Shown here: positions 59,722 through 63,732 of the stretch, piece by piece | Layout of the letters: every line of letters begins with the position of its first letter | Position numbering within the stretch: position 1 is the stretch's first letter | Origin: Aquabacterium humicola | GTDB taxonomy: Bacteria; Pseudomonadota; Gammaproteobacteria; Burkholderiales; Burkholderiaceae_C | Assembly (NCBI RefSeq): GCF_030167915.1 | Contig: NZ_JARGNB010000004.1 | Coordinates: 248,001-312,000, forward strand | Reading direction: 5' to 3' | DNA: 64,000 nucleotides | Notes under the pieces: generated by a model | Told to the model about the DNA's origin: nothing | The model's database searches: none | Seen by the model: only the letters and a program-made list of their open reading frames with translations | Made by a program: the position numbers and the translations under genes

Positions 59722-62145
59722 TCACTCGCCGTAGGGAATCCAGACGTTCTTCACCTGCGTCGCATGGCGCAGCAGCACCGGGCCGGACGCGGCCCGGTCG
59801 TCGTACCAGTCGATCGCGCGGCCGTGGTCGACCAGCGTGCGCTTCAAGTTGCCGACCGACAGCTTCTCGGCCATCGTGCTCAGTTCGGCCGAGCCGAAGG
59901 CCCACAGGCCATCGACGTCGTCGTGCTCGGCCAGCGTGCGGGCCAGCGTCATTGTTTCGCCAGTGACGATGTTGAGCACCCCCGCGGGCACGTCCGAGGT
60001 TTCGAGCACCTGGTAGAAGTCGGTCGCCACCAGCGAGGCCGGGCCGCTGGGGATCAGGACGACGCGATTGCCCATCGCCATCAGCGGCGCGGCCAGGCTG
60101 ATCAGCGCCAGCAGCGGGGCTTCCGGCGGGCAGACCACGCCGACCACGCCCAGCGCCTCGGGCAGCGCCAGCGCGACGCCGCGCAGCGGCGGCTGGTGCA
60201 CGCGGCCTTCGTACTTGTCGGCCCAGGCGGCGGCGGTGAAACAACGTCCGATCGACGCGTCCACTTCGGCGCGGGCCTGATCGGCGCCGACGCCGGTCAG
60301 CGTCGCGATGCGGGCAGCGAACTCGCCGGCGCGCGCCGACAGGTTCTCGCCCAGGTAGTACAGCACCTGCGCGCGGTTGTGCGACGTGGCCTTGGTCCAG
60401 CCCTCGGCGCCACGCGCGGCGGCCACCGCGTTGCGGATGTCCTTGCGGTTGCCCGCGCCGACTTCGCCGGCCAGGTGGCCGTCGGCCGCGAACTGCGGCA
60501 GCGAGTGGTTGCCGTCCGGCCGCGCCTGCTTGCCGCCGATGAAGAGCTTGGCGGTGCGGTCGAGCGTCGGCATCGCGAAGACGTTGGCGGTCGAGGCGGC
60601 CGGCGCCGCGCCGAGCGCCGGACCGGCCGGCGGCGTGGCCGGCGCCGCGGCGCGCGATGGCCGCTCATCCCACGCGATGGGCTTCAGGTATTCGAAGCAG
60701 CCCTCGCGGCCGCCCTCGCGGCCGAAGCCCGATTCGCGCGTGCCGCCGAAGCCGACCGCGGCATCGAAGAGGTTGGTCGCGTTGACCCACACGACACCCG
60801 CCACCAGCTTCGGCGCGATGTCCAGCGCCAGGCCGATGTTCTCGCTCCACACGCTGGCCGACAGGCCGTAGCGGCTGTTGTTGGCCAGCAGGACCGCTTC
60901 ATCGGGCGTGCGGAAGGTGCCGGTCACCAGCACCGGACCGAAGATCTCCTCGCGCGCGACGGTGGCGCCGGGCTGCACGTTGGTGATCAGCGTCGGCGGA
61001 TAGAAGCAGCCGCCGGCCGGGCAGGCTTCCGCCGCGCCCGGCGCCTGGTAGACCTGGCCGCCTTCGGCCGCGGCCACGGCCACCAGCGAGCGGATGCGCT
61101 CCAGCTGTGCCGGCGCGACGATCGCGCCCATGTCGATGGCCTTGTCCAGCGGTGCGCCGACGCGCAGCGCGCCCATGCGGCGCTTCAGCTTCGCGATGAA
61201 GCGTTCGGCCACGCCTTCCTGCACCAGCAGGCGCGAGCCGGCGCAGCACACCTGGCCCTGGTTGAACCAGATCGCGTCGACGACGCCTTCGACCGCCGCA
61301 TCGAGATCGGCGTCGTCGAAGACGACGAAGGGCGACTTGCCGCCCAGCTCCAGCGTCAGCGCCTTGCCCGAGCCGGCCGTGCGCTCGCGGATCAGGCGGC
61401 CGACCTCGGTCGAGCCGGTGAAGGCCAGCTTGTCGACGCCGGGGTGGTCGACCAGCAGTGCGCCGGTGGCGCCGTCGCCGGTGACGATGTTCAGCACGCC
61501 GGGCGGCAGGCCGGCCGCGGCGGCGAGCTCGGCGAACAGCAGCGCGGTCAGCGGCGTGTACTCGGCGGGCTTGAGCACCACGGTGTTGCCCAGCGCCAGC
61601 GCCGGCGCGATCTTCCACGCCAGCATCAGCAGCGGGAAGTTCCACGGAATGATCTGGCCGACGACGCCGACCGGCCGGTGGTCGGCGAACTCCGTGGCCT
61701 GCACCTGCGCCCAGCCGGCATGGTGGTAGAAGTGGCGCGCGACCAGCGGCACGTCGATGTCGCGCGATTCACGGATCGGCTTGCCGTTGTCCATGCTCTC
61801 GACCACCGCCAGCAGCCGTGCGTGCCGCTGCACCATGCGCGCCAGCGCATAGAGGTGCCGCGCCCGCACCGCGCCGCCCGCAGCCGCCCAAGGCCCCTGG
61901 GCCGCCCGCGCGGCGGCCACCGCAGCGTCGACATCGGCCTTCGACCCCTGCGCGATGCGCGCCAGCCGCTTGCCCGTCGACGGATCGTTGCTGTCGAACG
62001 CATCGGCCCGTTCGGCGCCGACCCACGCGCCGTTGATGAAATGGCCGAAGCCCTTGTCGTGGGCGGAGAGCCAGGCCTTGGCCTCGGCATTGCCCTCGGG
62101 CGCCGGCGCGTAGTCCATCGTGTCCATGTAGTGCGCGACCGTCAT
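59722..62145 (-). CDS. Aldehyde dehydrogenase with a second, incomplete dehydrogenase domain
   Basis: Protein of 807 residues. Residues about 30-490 form a complete aldehyde dehydrogenase with catalytic glutamate in LELGGKSPF and catalytic cysteine in QGQVCCAGSR. After a Pro/Ala linker, residues about 520-807 resemble the N-terminal cofactor-binding part of another dehydrogenase (FIGGKQARPDG, VVCPPEAPLLALISLAAPLMAMGNR) but lack the cysteine region. Next to deoC the likely job is oxidising the acetaldehyde made by the aldolase. GGAGC precedes the ATG at 62145. It is convergent with cdd. Confidence 0.88.
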   Translation of the reverse strand: MTVAHYMDTMDYAPAPEGNAEAKAWLSAHDKGFGHFINGAWVGAERADAFDSNDPSTGKRLARIAQGSKADVDAAVAAARAAQGPWAAAGGAVRARHLYALARMVQRHARLLAVVESMDNGKPIRESRDIDVPLVARHFYHHAGWAQVQATEFADHRPVGVVGQIIPWNFPLLMLAWKIAPALALGNTVVLKPAEYTPLTALLFAELAAAAGLPPGVLNIVTGDGATGALLVDHPGVDKLAFTGSTEVGRLIRERTAGSGKALTLELGGKSPFVVFDDADLDAAVEGVVDAIWFNQGQVCCAGSRLLVQEGVAERFIAKLKRRMGALRVGAPLDKAIDMGAIVAPAQLERIRSLVAVAAAEGGQVYQAPGAAEACPAGGCFYPPTLITNVQPGATVAREEIFGPVLVTGTFRTPDEAVLLANNSRYGLSASVWSENIGLALDIAPKLVAGVVWVNATNLFDAAVGFGGTRESGFGREGGREGCFEYLKPIAWDERPSRAAAPATPPAGPALGAAPAASTANVFAMPTLDRTAKLFIGGKQARPDGNHSLPQFAADGHLAGEVGAGNRKDIRNAVAAARGAEGWTKATSHNRAQVLYYLGENLSARAGEFAARIATLTGVGADQARAEVDASIGRCFTAAAWADKYEGRVHQPPLRGVALALPEALGVVGVVCPPEAPLLALISLAAPLMAMGNRVVLIPSGPASLVATDFYQVLETSDVPAGVLNIVTGETMTLARTLAEHDDVDGLWAFGSAELSTMAEKLSVGNLKRTLVDHGRAIDWYDDRAASGPVLLRHATQVKNVWIPYGE

Positions 62146-62257
62146 GTCAGTTGCTCCAGGGAATTCCGTCGCGTTCAGGACGCGTCGATTGCGAGATAGT
62201 GAAGGTCGCCTGGCGGCCCGTTGCGGGCGTTCGCCGTTGCGTGCTTGGGTGTGCACA

Positions 62258-62387
62258 GGATCAGGCCGGCGGGGCGCTCTGTTCCGCTCATGTCCCCCGG
62301 GCCGGGCTGCGCTGTGACGTCCCAGGTGGTGCTCGGCCGGCCCTCCTCCTTGACTTCGCTCCACAGAGCGCCCCGCCGTCCTGATCC
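62258..62387 (+). repeat. Stem-closed repeat element, copy 1
   Basis: A 130-bp unit inside the 534-bp noncoding gap 62146-62679. Terminal arms 62258-62282 and 62363-62387 are 25-bp inverted repeats with one mismatch (beginning GGATCAGGCC and ending GGCCT/GTCCTGATCC). They enclose a 78-bp core, 62283-62360, that starts TCCGCTCATGTCCCCC and ends CTCCTTGACTTCGCT. Inside the core GGGCCGG and CCGGCCC can pair. Confidence 0.8.
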
Positions 62388-62429
62388 GCCCCGCCCTGGC
62401 ATCCGATCGCACGCCGCGGTAGTGCCGAA

Positions 62430-62556
62430 GCCAAGGACGCTGGGTGCCCGGCGTAGCGAAGTCAAGGAGGAGGGCCGGCCGGGATTGAGCCTGAGGCGTA
62501 TCAGCGGCGCACGGCCCGGGGGACATGAGCGGAGCCGGGCACCCAGTGGCCTTGGC
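62430..62556 (-). repeat. Stem-closed repeat element, copy 2 (inverted)
   Basis: A 127-bp unit in opposite orientation to copy 1. Its core (62455-62533) matches the copy 1 core exactly over its first 22 and last 26 bases, with a diverged middle of about 30. Its terminal arms, 62430-62452 and 62534-62556, are complementary to each other with three mismatches but unrelated to the arms of copy 1. The order arm, core, two bases, arm is the same in both. Confidence 0.8.
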
Positions 62557-62679
62557 GCGCTCGGTGCTGCCATGCACAGTCCCCGCGTGCGCGCCGGCCT
62601 GATCTTGCGCGGTCTACGCACGCGGCACGTGGCGACCGACCGCAACGGGCCGAATGCGGGATTCCACATGCCACCCACG

Positions 62680-63732
62680 TCACGCCACCCCGTGGCGATT
62701 GAACGCGGAATAGCGTCCGGTGACGTGGTGTTCCAGCTGCCGCTCGATGTCCGCCAGCAGGCTCGACGCGCCGACGCGGAAGAGTTCCGGCTCCAGCCAC
62801 GGCCGGCCGAGCTCTTCCTTCATCAACACCTGGTACTCGAGCACGTTCTTCGCGGTGCCGATGCCGCCGGCCGGCTTGTAGCCGATGCGCACGCCGGTGC
62901 GTTCCTCGTACTCGCGGATCATGCGCAGCATCACCAGCGACACTGGCAAGGTCGCGTTGACCGGCTCCTTGCCGGTGGACGTCTTGATGAAGTCGGCGCC
63001 GGCCATCATGCAGACCATCGACGCCTTCGCCACGTTGCGCAGCGTCTTCAGCTCGCCGGTGGCGAGGATGGCCTTCACATGCGCCTCGCCGCAGGCGGCG
63101 CGGAAGTCGCGCATCTCGTCGTAGAGCTTGCGCCACTGGCCGCCCAGCACATGCTCGCGGCTGATGACGATGTCGATCTCCTGCGCGCCGTCGCGCACCG
63201 AGGCTTCGATCTCCTTGAGCTTCAGCGCATGCGGATTCAGGCCGGCCGGGAAGCCGGTGGACACCGCCGCCACCGGGATGCCCGAGCCTTCGAGCGCGGC
63301 GACCGCGGTGCCGACGAAGCGGTGGTAGACGCAGACCGCACCGGTGGTGATGCGGCGGTCGGCCACGCCCAGCGCCTCGAGCAGATCACTGCGCACCGGC
63401 TGGCGCGCCTTCGCGCACAGGCGCTTCACGCGCTCGGCCGTGTCGTCGCCGGACAGCGTCGTCAGGTCGATGCAGGTGATGGCCTTCAGCAGCCACGCGG
63501 CCTGCGCGTCCTTCTTCACCGAGCGCCGGCCGGCGAGGCCGGCGATGCGGCGCTCGACCGCGGACAGGTTCACCCGCTGGTCGACGAACCAATCCGGATC
63601 GAAGGGCTGGCCGGGGTTGCGCCCGGGCGTCGCGGCGGCAGAGACCCGCGCATCCGCAGCAGGCTGCGGCAGCGCGGTGGAGGGGGCCGCGGCGGCATCG
63701 CGCAGCAGGGGTTTGGCGGAAGCGGCGTTCAT
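62680..63732 (-). CDS. deoC: Deoxyribose-phosphate aldolase
   Basis: Class I aldolase splitting 2-deoxyribose-5-phosphate into glyceraldehyde-3-phosphate and acetaldehyde. The Schiff-base lysine K250 is in ADFIKTSTGK, with the acidic partner D187 in EIDIVI and a second lysine in RIGYKPAGGIG. At 350 residues it is of the long type: about 65 N-terminal residues, Ala/Pro-rich, precede the barrel. I take ATG at 63732. Together with the adjacent aldehyde dehydrogenase it gives a complete route from deoxynucleoside sugars to central metabolites. Confidence 0.95.
   Translation of the reverse strand: MNAASAKPLLRDAAAAPSTALPQPAADARVSAAATPGRNPGQPFDPDWFVDQRVNLSAVERRIAGLAGRRSVKKDAQAAWLLKAITCIDLTTLSGDDTAERVKRLCAKARQPVRSDLLEALGVADRRITTGAVCVYHRFVGTAVAALEGSGIPVAAVSTGFPAGLNPHALKLKEIEASVRDGAQEIDIVISREHVLGGQWRKLYDEMRDFRAACGEAHVKAILATGELKTLRNVAKASMVCMMAGADFIKTSTGKEPVNATLPVSLVMLRMIREYEERTGVRIGYKPAGGIGTAKNVLEYQVLMKEELGRPWLEPELFRVGASSLLADIERQLEHHVTGRYSAFNRHGVA

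Follow-up and report, generated by a model that had tools for sequence, protein, structure and literature searches.

Mobile paired hairpins with a defined folding strand: an apparently undescribed repeat family in Aquabacterium humicola and other bacteria

The stretch of Aquabacterium humicola DNA analysed here (the window; 64,000 nucleotides, positions 248,001 to 312,000 of contig NZ_JARGNB010000004.1) holds, in the gap between an aldehyde dehydrogenase gene and deoC, two hairpin units in inverted orientation that share a core and are each closed by a long stem. Together they form one copy of a real family of mobile paired hairpins with a defined folding strand and a defined motif, and comparison of the copies indicates that the fold, not the stem sequence, is kept across many bacteria. 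The family is apparently undescribed so far: a literature search, judged from titles, abstract openings and some passages, returned no description of it, and six core strings had no occurrence in the literature library searched. The repeat structure is far beyond chance, because the whole element recurs at 16 places in the window genome (7.39 Mb, 44 contigs) and its 26-nt core block has 31 matches there (30 exact, one with a single mismatch) compared to none for the reversed control. The 16 copies, the window copy included, are 75–100% identical in a whole-element search that scored 40 of 90 first-look candidates, and they contain all 31 core-block matches, two in each of 15 copies and one in L023.

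Pairing, folding strand and internal loop

On its folded (sense) strand, a unit consists of one side of a lower stem of 18–25 bp, AGCGAAGTNAAGGAGGAGG, an apical hairpin, CCGGGGGACATGAGCGG, and the other side of the stem. Matches to a covariance model of the unit (96 positions, arms cut at 20 bp) are ~80–190 nt long, partial matches apart, and each window unit measures ~120 nt. An inverted-repeat search recovered the two inverted units, their paired arms and their shared core blocks at the positions given in a preliminary description of the locus; of the two blocks, TCCGCTCATGTCCCCCGGGCCG has the 22 nt first reported, and CGGCCGGCCCTCCTCCTTGACTTCGCT was recounted as 27 rather than 26. The core halves are likewise inverted repeats of each other (62272-62326 versus 62490-62544, 80%; 62334-62376 versus 62439-62481, 86%).

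Pairing of the stems was evaluated across copies. In 158 of 205 distinct units, 12–14 of the 14 arm positions beside the core pair, compared to ~5% for exchanged arms. Alignment A1 comprises 54 of the 55 dereplicated units whose middle does not exceed 21 nt (the remaining unit, with a 1-nt middle, was dropped), and so excludes units with longer middles, the window's own among them. Here both sides have changed in 30 of 34 pairs, 94.4% of the cells are paired (66.9% after shuffling), and the covariation score is 0.705, compared to 0.188 for shuffled and at most 0.137 for slid alignments. RNAalifold recovers the lower stem and the apical hairpin unaided, with double changes in 28 of 29 pairs. 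A wider set of 38 matches (three from G215 of the window's family, the other 35 from genomes in other families of the order or beyond it) gives a covariation score of 0.791 versus 0.203 and changes on both sides in 32 of 34 pairs, in an alignment that was fitted to the covariance model and is biased towards it. Within this set, AA[GA]TNAAGG.GGAGG and CCGG.GGACA are almost invariant, and the tract between AAGT and the lower stem varies (e.g. GGA opposite GGA in the genome G497).

The arms also reveal which strand folds. Read on the CCTCCTCC strand, their mismatches in 57 dereplicated units comprise 9 G·T, 73 A·C and 19 others, and in all 187 units 10 G·T, 235 A·C and 57 others. Because each A·C corresponds to a G·T when the complementary strand is read, the folding strand under selection is the one with AAAGGAGGAGG, opposite the CCTCC strand. 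Folding energies, whether from RNA or from DNA parameters, show greater stability of the sense strand in 53 of 54 units. The anti-Shine-Dalgarno-like string CCTCCTT had been proposed as a possible point of ribosome interaction; this is weakened by the wobble asymmetry, which puts the folded strand on the other side (AAAGGAGGAGG), and by the one changing position of the tract, mostly matched by a change on the opposite strand that ribosome contact would not need.

The core shows covariation as well, in part through purine–purine swaps. Among the 187 of 205 units with standard arm offset and a score of at least 9, core pair C2-G13 is C-G in 155 and T-A in 31, and A5-T10 is A-T in 172 and G-C in 10. 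Between them lies a tandem G·A (G3·A12 and A4·G11; 175 and 177 units, respectively), replaced by G-C and A-T in 11 and 10 units, and at A13·G4 the pair A·G (169 units) alternates with G·A (11), seven units having neither. In addition, AAGAAGGAGG is accompanied by GGGTGACAT or GGATGACAT in three A2 units and in L082 of A1. Such a pattern is what would be expected of a folded recognition motif. A coding reading of the core strand (SEVKEEG, GGHER, with changes at third codon positions) was rejected: the middle lengths fit no single frame, and core changes accompany changes in the pairing partners.

An optional domain of ~69 nt with hairpins of its own occurs at one fixed core position, in either unit, of copies from the window genome and from records named Rubrivivax, Albitalea, Rhizobacter and Ideonella. 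It carries the palindrome CACAAACAGTCC/GGACTGTTTGTG, and by eye its own stems vary in a paired manner; the search for it found 32 rows, of which the 23 passing the filter were listed.

Two other explanations bear directly on these results. Template-switch correction is a known route by which DNA hairpins become perfect, and quasi-palindromes corrected in this way would mimic arm covariation without selection. We regard this as scarcely credible here, since it would not be expected to make G·T outnumber A·C on one fixed strand, to exchange A·G for G·A, or to leave a conserved core containing non-canonical pairs. Alternatively, the units may be structured RNA elements of mRNA leaders, intercistronic regions or tails, with a part in RNA processing, RNA stability or protein binding, whose copies spread independently of the fold. 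RNA favours G·U more than DNA favours G·T, and RNA internal loops typically contain tandem G·A and purine–purine pairs in which swaps compensate one another; both the strong wobble asymmetry and the composition of the core speak for this RNA explanation. Rfam offers no family for the units: window positions 62000-62800 gave no match at E up to 10, and 20 relative loci at gathering scores gave none except a tRNA.

Two unit types and their spread across genomes

In 152 loci the covariance model identified 151 distinct elements, 96 with two units and 55 with one, the latter in part a consequence of locus ends or of a diverged partner. The order of two-unit elements is nearly uniform: 92 are sense-divergent, three tandem minus, one tandem plus and none convergent. 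Arms within one element are less alike than random pairs (5.73 of 12 matching versus 6.53; 0 of 2000 permutations as low), and this dissimilarity leads us to distinguish two unit types, A (..GCTCTGC) and B (..GACCGGC, ..GGCTGAC), which on the evidence of their arm sequences travel as a heterodimer. Simple letter rules applied to 62 distinct arm pairs, some with arms out of register, give 38 A+B, six A+A, two B+B, and 16 with at least one untyped arm. By eye, the arm proper to unit 1 and the arm proper to unit 2 are each little altered across 15 of the 16 window-genome copies, and in the diverged copy L022 the arms have changed and still pair. The preliminary description had seen the unlike stems of the window units as swapped. 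Per-copy swapping was rejected on account of the near-constant arms within each type and the co-occurrence of the types in heterodimers; two differentiated unit types describe the stems better, and the apparent swap looks like an old heterodimer.

The family extends well beyond the window genome. A 22-nt core pattern (at most two mismatches) was found in 41 of 299 genomes and 30 of 141 genera of the window's family, with no match to the control among the rows listed. An exact scan of named genomes returned 90 loci, including Rubrivivax, Hydrogenophaga, Rhizobacter, Albitalea, Ideonella, Sulfurisoma, Paucibacter and Methylibium. With the covariance model (E ≤ 1e-5), 16 of 349 genomes of the order match, from three families, and four of 369 genomes of the class match as well, one family outside the order contributing two of the four; these searches scored at most 12 and 11 candidates per genome, respectively, under stricter filters. 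Deeper model searches of six genomes, scoring 150 candidates in each, found at least 29 units in the window genome, at least 20, 73, 21 and 25 in four others, and at least 111 in the 3.6-Mb genome G497, where the 150 were taken from 3437. Such counts are not all independent, since many elements share a genome with others and certain loci look orthologous across related species (e.g. L088, L105 and L156; L155 and L160). Carriage by plasmids or phages was considered and rejected: no plasmid matched the family, and viral contigs had no exact pattern match, the phage collection not having been searched. A cluster of three units (minus, minus, plus) was observed at L349 (G925:C98), in a genome outside the order; by eye, the tract beside the core is shorter and fully paired in its first two units.

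Several earlier proposals are borne out by these results. The locus had been described as a REP/BIME-like dispersed element (repetitive extragenic palindrome; bacterial interspersed mosaic element), which agrees with the copies in the window genome, the pattern-positive genomes and the sense-divergent order; pairing had been held to be selected without conserved sequence, which agrees with the covariation, the own-arm pairing and the strand asymmetry. The description had also named what would speak against it, namely the absence of further copies or copies with unpaired flanks, and further copies with pairing flanks are present.

Insertion between genes and the search for a mobilising enzyme

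At the orthologous deoC–aldehyde dehydrogenase junction of a same-genus genome (G143), the site is empty and reads TGACATG, the deoC TGA being followed by one base and then ATG. Relative to G143, ~530 bp are inserted in the window between TGACGTG at the deoC stop and TGACATG at the aldehyde dehydrogenase start (Table 1). The insertion, from ~62150 to 62682, exceeds the extent first described. The stop context of deoC is GGCGTGACGTGGGTGG, with 1179 nt open upstream of the stop. In G301, a gap of ~70 bp separates its two matches at this junction. No T run was visible by eye after the window arms, with no intrinsic-terminator scan made.

Table 1. Coordinates of the window element and of related features; positions refer to the window unless a contig or locus is named.
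Feature	Position	Strand	Basis
Unit 1 (type A), covariance-model match; folded (sense) strand minus	62263..62382	-	79.3 bits, E 4.6e-13; C34:310263-310382 in the window genome
Unit 2 (type B), covariance-model match; folded (sense) strand plus	62433..62553	+	82.4 bits, E 1.1e-13; C34:310433-310553 in the window genome
Unit 1 lower stem, outer arm	62258..62282		inverted repeat, 25 nt, 96% complementary
Unit 1 lower stem, inner arm	62363..62387		pairs with 62258..62282
Unit 2 lower stem, inner arm	62430..62452		inverted repeat, 23 nt, 91% complementary
Unit 2 lower stem, outer arm	62534..62556		pairs with 62430..62452
Spacer separating the units; 5' ends of both sense strands face it	62388..62429		sequence and sense-divergent order
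Left outer inverted repeat CGGCCCGTTGCGGGCGTTCGCCG	62214..62236	+	inverted-repeat search
Right outer inverted repeat	62630..62652	-	inverted-repeat search
Direct repeat TGACATG, including aldehyde dehydrogenase start codon; start context CCCTGGAGCAACTGACATGACG	62143..62149	-	sequence, empty-site comparison
GGAG at insert end (GGAGCAAC), likely ribosome-binding site (putative function)	62154..62157	-	sequence
Direct repeat TGACGTG, second copy, one base different, including deoC stop TGA	62676..62682	-	sequence, empty-site comparison
Whole insertion, one direct-repeat copy included; absent at orthologous G143 junction	62150..62682		G143 comparison
Second structured family, sites in the window genome	C42:318115-318741 (L230/L231), C4:73519, C40:235733		
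Loci with the optional domain	L020 1765, L021 1775, L084, L089, L124, L137, L154, L163		

Two side observations concern the surroundings of the units. The right flank (62580-62652) resembles a degenerate inverted copy of the left flank (CCTGATCTTGCGC ... CCGCAACGGGCCG), giving the impression that another partial unit is attached. Downstream of the element, the aldehyde dehydrogenase frame (59722-62145, minus strand) has ~800 codons and appears to join two aldehyde dehydrogenase domains in a single protein.

The outer inverted repeats raise the possibility of an ordinary miniature inverted-repeat transposable element (MITE) that derives from a DDE-type insertion sequence bounded by terminal inverted repeats and has the hairpins as passengers. 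This is a small non-coding insertion with an empty site, as such an element would be, and CGGCCCGTTGCGG lies on both sides of the window copy and is common to a second repeat family. This 13-mer has 17 exact occurrences in the window genome, compared to three for its reversed control. However, all 17 occurrences belong to this family or to the second, which is also non-coding, and no parent insertion sequence with a CGGCCCGTTGCGG end was found in that genome. Moreover, the outer ends vary between genera (by eye) as the hairpin fold is kept, and passengers would not be expected to retain covariation and strand asymmetry. We consider the MITE explanation improbable. The second family is large and structured, has a core with GAGTCCGGCGGTCGGCCCC and GCCGTCCATTTAGCTTCG and the outer end CGGCCCGTTGCGG, shares the first 13 letters of CGGCCCGTTGCGGGCGTTCGCCG, and occurs at the sites in Table 1 as well as near contig ends of C1, C3, C4, C14, C40, C41 and C43. 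The common outer end suggests machinery shared by the two families.

Gene context was assigned with a home-made open reading frame (ORF) caller based on G+C content at third codon positions. Of 151 elements, 64 lie in codirectional, 38 in convergent and 10 in divergent gaps; a further 12 fall within a called ORF and 27 sit at the edge of their locus. When units were identified less strictly, an earlier count was 59, 31 and 6 for the three kinds of gap. The avoidance of divergent, promoter-bearing gaps (10, versus 38 convergent) again speaks for structured RNA, as does the fact that many G497 copies have a GGAG-like sequence ahead of the next start codon. On the other hand, lone units in codirectional gaps show no preference relative to transcription (10 sense, 8 antisense; as a test of RNA function, this orientation count was set aside as uninformative), every sense-divergent pair has one unit in each orientation, and Rfam is silent. 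We hold the RNA explanation to be a serious one, if on the whole somewhat unlikely.

Some copies fit precisely into the space that separates one gene's stop codon from the start codon of the following gene. Of 20 fetched copies from G497, 17 have T(GA/AG)N(A/G)TG at the right boundary and 14 have it at the left, compared to a background of 0.024 per 100 nt in 400 kb of this genome. The right-hand ATG/GTG opens at least 204 nt in 13 of the 20 (bounded by the fetched stretch), with no long frame opened by the right-hand motifs of L299, L301, L307 and L313, and in 11 an open stretch of at least 111 nt runs up to the left stop. GGAGCAAC precedes the right motif in five copies (L298, L301, L305, L310 and L312), with near variants elsewhere; in two (L305 and L312) the whole of GGAGCAACTGACATG, the letters before the window aldehyde dehydrogenase start, is present, a string found twice in the 400 kb. 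The right flanks of L298-L317 carry, ~60 nt past the right arm, a further stretch that is often close to GTTTCATGCGTCGCGGAAGACGCGCAGCGTCATGGAGCAACTGACATG. This GTTTCATGCGTCGCGGAAGACGCGCAGCGTCATGGAGCAACTGACATG-like stretch ends the G497 element and supplies the GGAG-like sequence before the next start codon. Outside G497, 17 sides with the strict junction motif were inspected, GGAGAACTGACATG and GGAAAACTGAGATG among them, seven more being left out for want of a GGA..AACTGA-like context or as accidental-looking; 12 of the 17 have a candidate upstream stop. Junction targeting and duplication are likely but short of proof.

The closest published analogues are REPINs, inverted REP doublets that form hairpins, show compensatory changes and have a RAYT (REP-associated tyrosine transposase, or TnpA-REP) gene nearby (PMC3116915); this and the following statements on published systems rest on parts of the cited papers. 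Were the present units true REP/BIME/REPIN elements moved by a RAYT, as the preliminary description had envisaged, their inverted doublets, compensated stems, intergenic location and strand specificity would fit (PMC3116915, PMC8266576, PMC2817692). The Pfam family PF01797 (Y1_Tnp) occurs in 26 of the 41 pattern-positive genomes and in 11 of 14 genomes of a further set that included G497. Yet it is absent from the other 15 and from G497, and it is present in 27 of 33 chosen pattern-negative genomes, two of which (G070 and G114) were later element-positive by the model. Among nine genomes with at least eight pattern matches, seven have no PF01797 (G000, the window genome, and G074, G096, G103, G202, G250 and G276), and G208 and G215 have one each. 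RAYT genes are reported always to be flanked by two REPs (PMC2817692), whereas 24 Y1/RAYT loci, 17 of them from element-positive genomes, have no unit within 1.5 kb. A RAYT was consequently rejected as the mover, and we judge this explanation very unlikely.

The reading that we favour, with about as much to be said for it as against it, is a non-autonomous mobile element working like an oversized REPIN. Each unit would be recognised as a folded single strand, at a first guess DNA exposed at replication; a protein may read the conserved internal loop AAGTNAAGGAGGAGG/CCGGGGGACAT, and the stems would need only to pair. The two outward-pointing units would form the element's two ends, which a trans-acting enzyme other than a Y1/RAYT transposase may cut and rejoin. 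Survival at operon junctions might be eased by the short direct repeat, which would keep stop and start, and by the element end, which would supply GGAG.

Several observations weigh against this oversized-REPIN reading. The direct repeats in the window differ by one base, and identical 8-mers flank only two of the 20 G497 copies (L304 and L315), so that a target-site duplication is not secured. Outside G497, the strict junction motif occurs on only 24 of 277 sides, a number without a background figure, and stop-N-ATG/GTG is found upstream in only seven of the 17 inspected sides; furthermore, 38 of the 112 elements with two called flanking genes lie in convergent gaps, a setting that offers no start codon. 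For one strand of the complete window element, the predicted fold is a single long hairpin (-227.9 kcal/mol with RNA parameters), not two units, and the data here do not favour single-stranded DNA over RNA. As for the enzyme, neither the window genome nor G497, with its many units, has a Y1_Tnp match. Neighbouring genes (1923 ORFs from 214 loci) were clustered, and no transposase was recognised by eye in the 14 largest clusters, which were not run against a family library and look like common metabolic and transport genes.

A more specific proposal, which we offer only tentatively, is that the family represents a new type of mobile element. Each element would be a heterodimer of large single strands in folded form, recognised by an enzyme through a conserved non-canonical internal loop; it would insert at translationally coupled stop/start junctions (CTGANATG) and would keep the operon working through a ribosome-binding site of its own. 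The family provides a clean natural experiment on a fold maintained without its stem sequence and with the working strand defined. If the junction preference is real targeting, this would be a mobile element fitted to operon architecture, and the family would point to a not yet identified nuclease or transposase.

Comparison with known repeat and RNA families

The present family shares with structured RNAs of Rfam its covarying helices and a conserved non-canonical internal loop. It resembles MITEs in its non-coding insertion, the outer inverted repeats in the window genome and the empty site in a relative. In the window, the terminal inverted repeats lie inside the insertion and not at its very ends; in contrast to MITEs, no parent insertion sequence was seen in the window genome, and by eye the ends change between genera as the inner fold stays. 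For one MITE, MITEAba12, weak secondary structure has been reported (PMC6382973).

CGTC-tagged palindromic repeats are REP-like dimers seemingly without a dedicated transposase (PMC3733652), and the present dimers likewise have no known dedicated one. The units described here are several times larger, and the two are set apart by description, their consensus sequences not having been compared. Neither a GTAG nor a CGTC tag was noticed by eye beside the stems of 32 units, a systematic search not having been made.

The strongest resemblance is to REPIN/BIME elements, which are likewise intergenic, inverted hairpin doublets, heterodimers among them, with compensatory stem changes (PMC3116915, PMC3733652, PMC8266576). 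TnpA-REP recognises its substrate strand-specifically (PMC8266576), and a choice between one long hairpin and two hairpins exists in both systems. Of the features that characterise REP/BIME elements, the inverted intergenic doublet (92 of 96) and the compensatory stem changes are found here; a RAYT flanked by cognate units is not, as some element-positive genomes carry Y1_Tnp and no tested one is adjoined by a unit. Unlike REP units, which are 20-40 bp long (PMC3733652), those of the present family are ~80–190 nt. They also differ in their long, conserved, purine-rich internal loop, in the different stems of A and B units, in the window genome and G497 having no Y1_Tnp match, in the 24 Y1/RAYT loci having no flanking units, and in the many G497 copies at stop/start junctions. 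By RAYT and unit length the family is therefore no member of the REPINs, but it is REPIN-like in its working.
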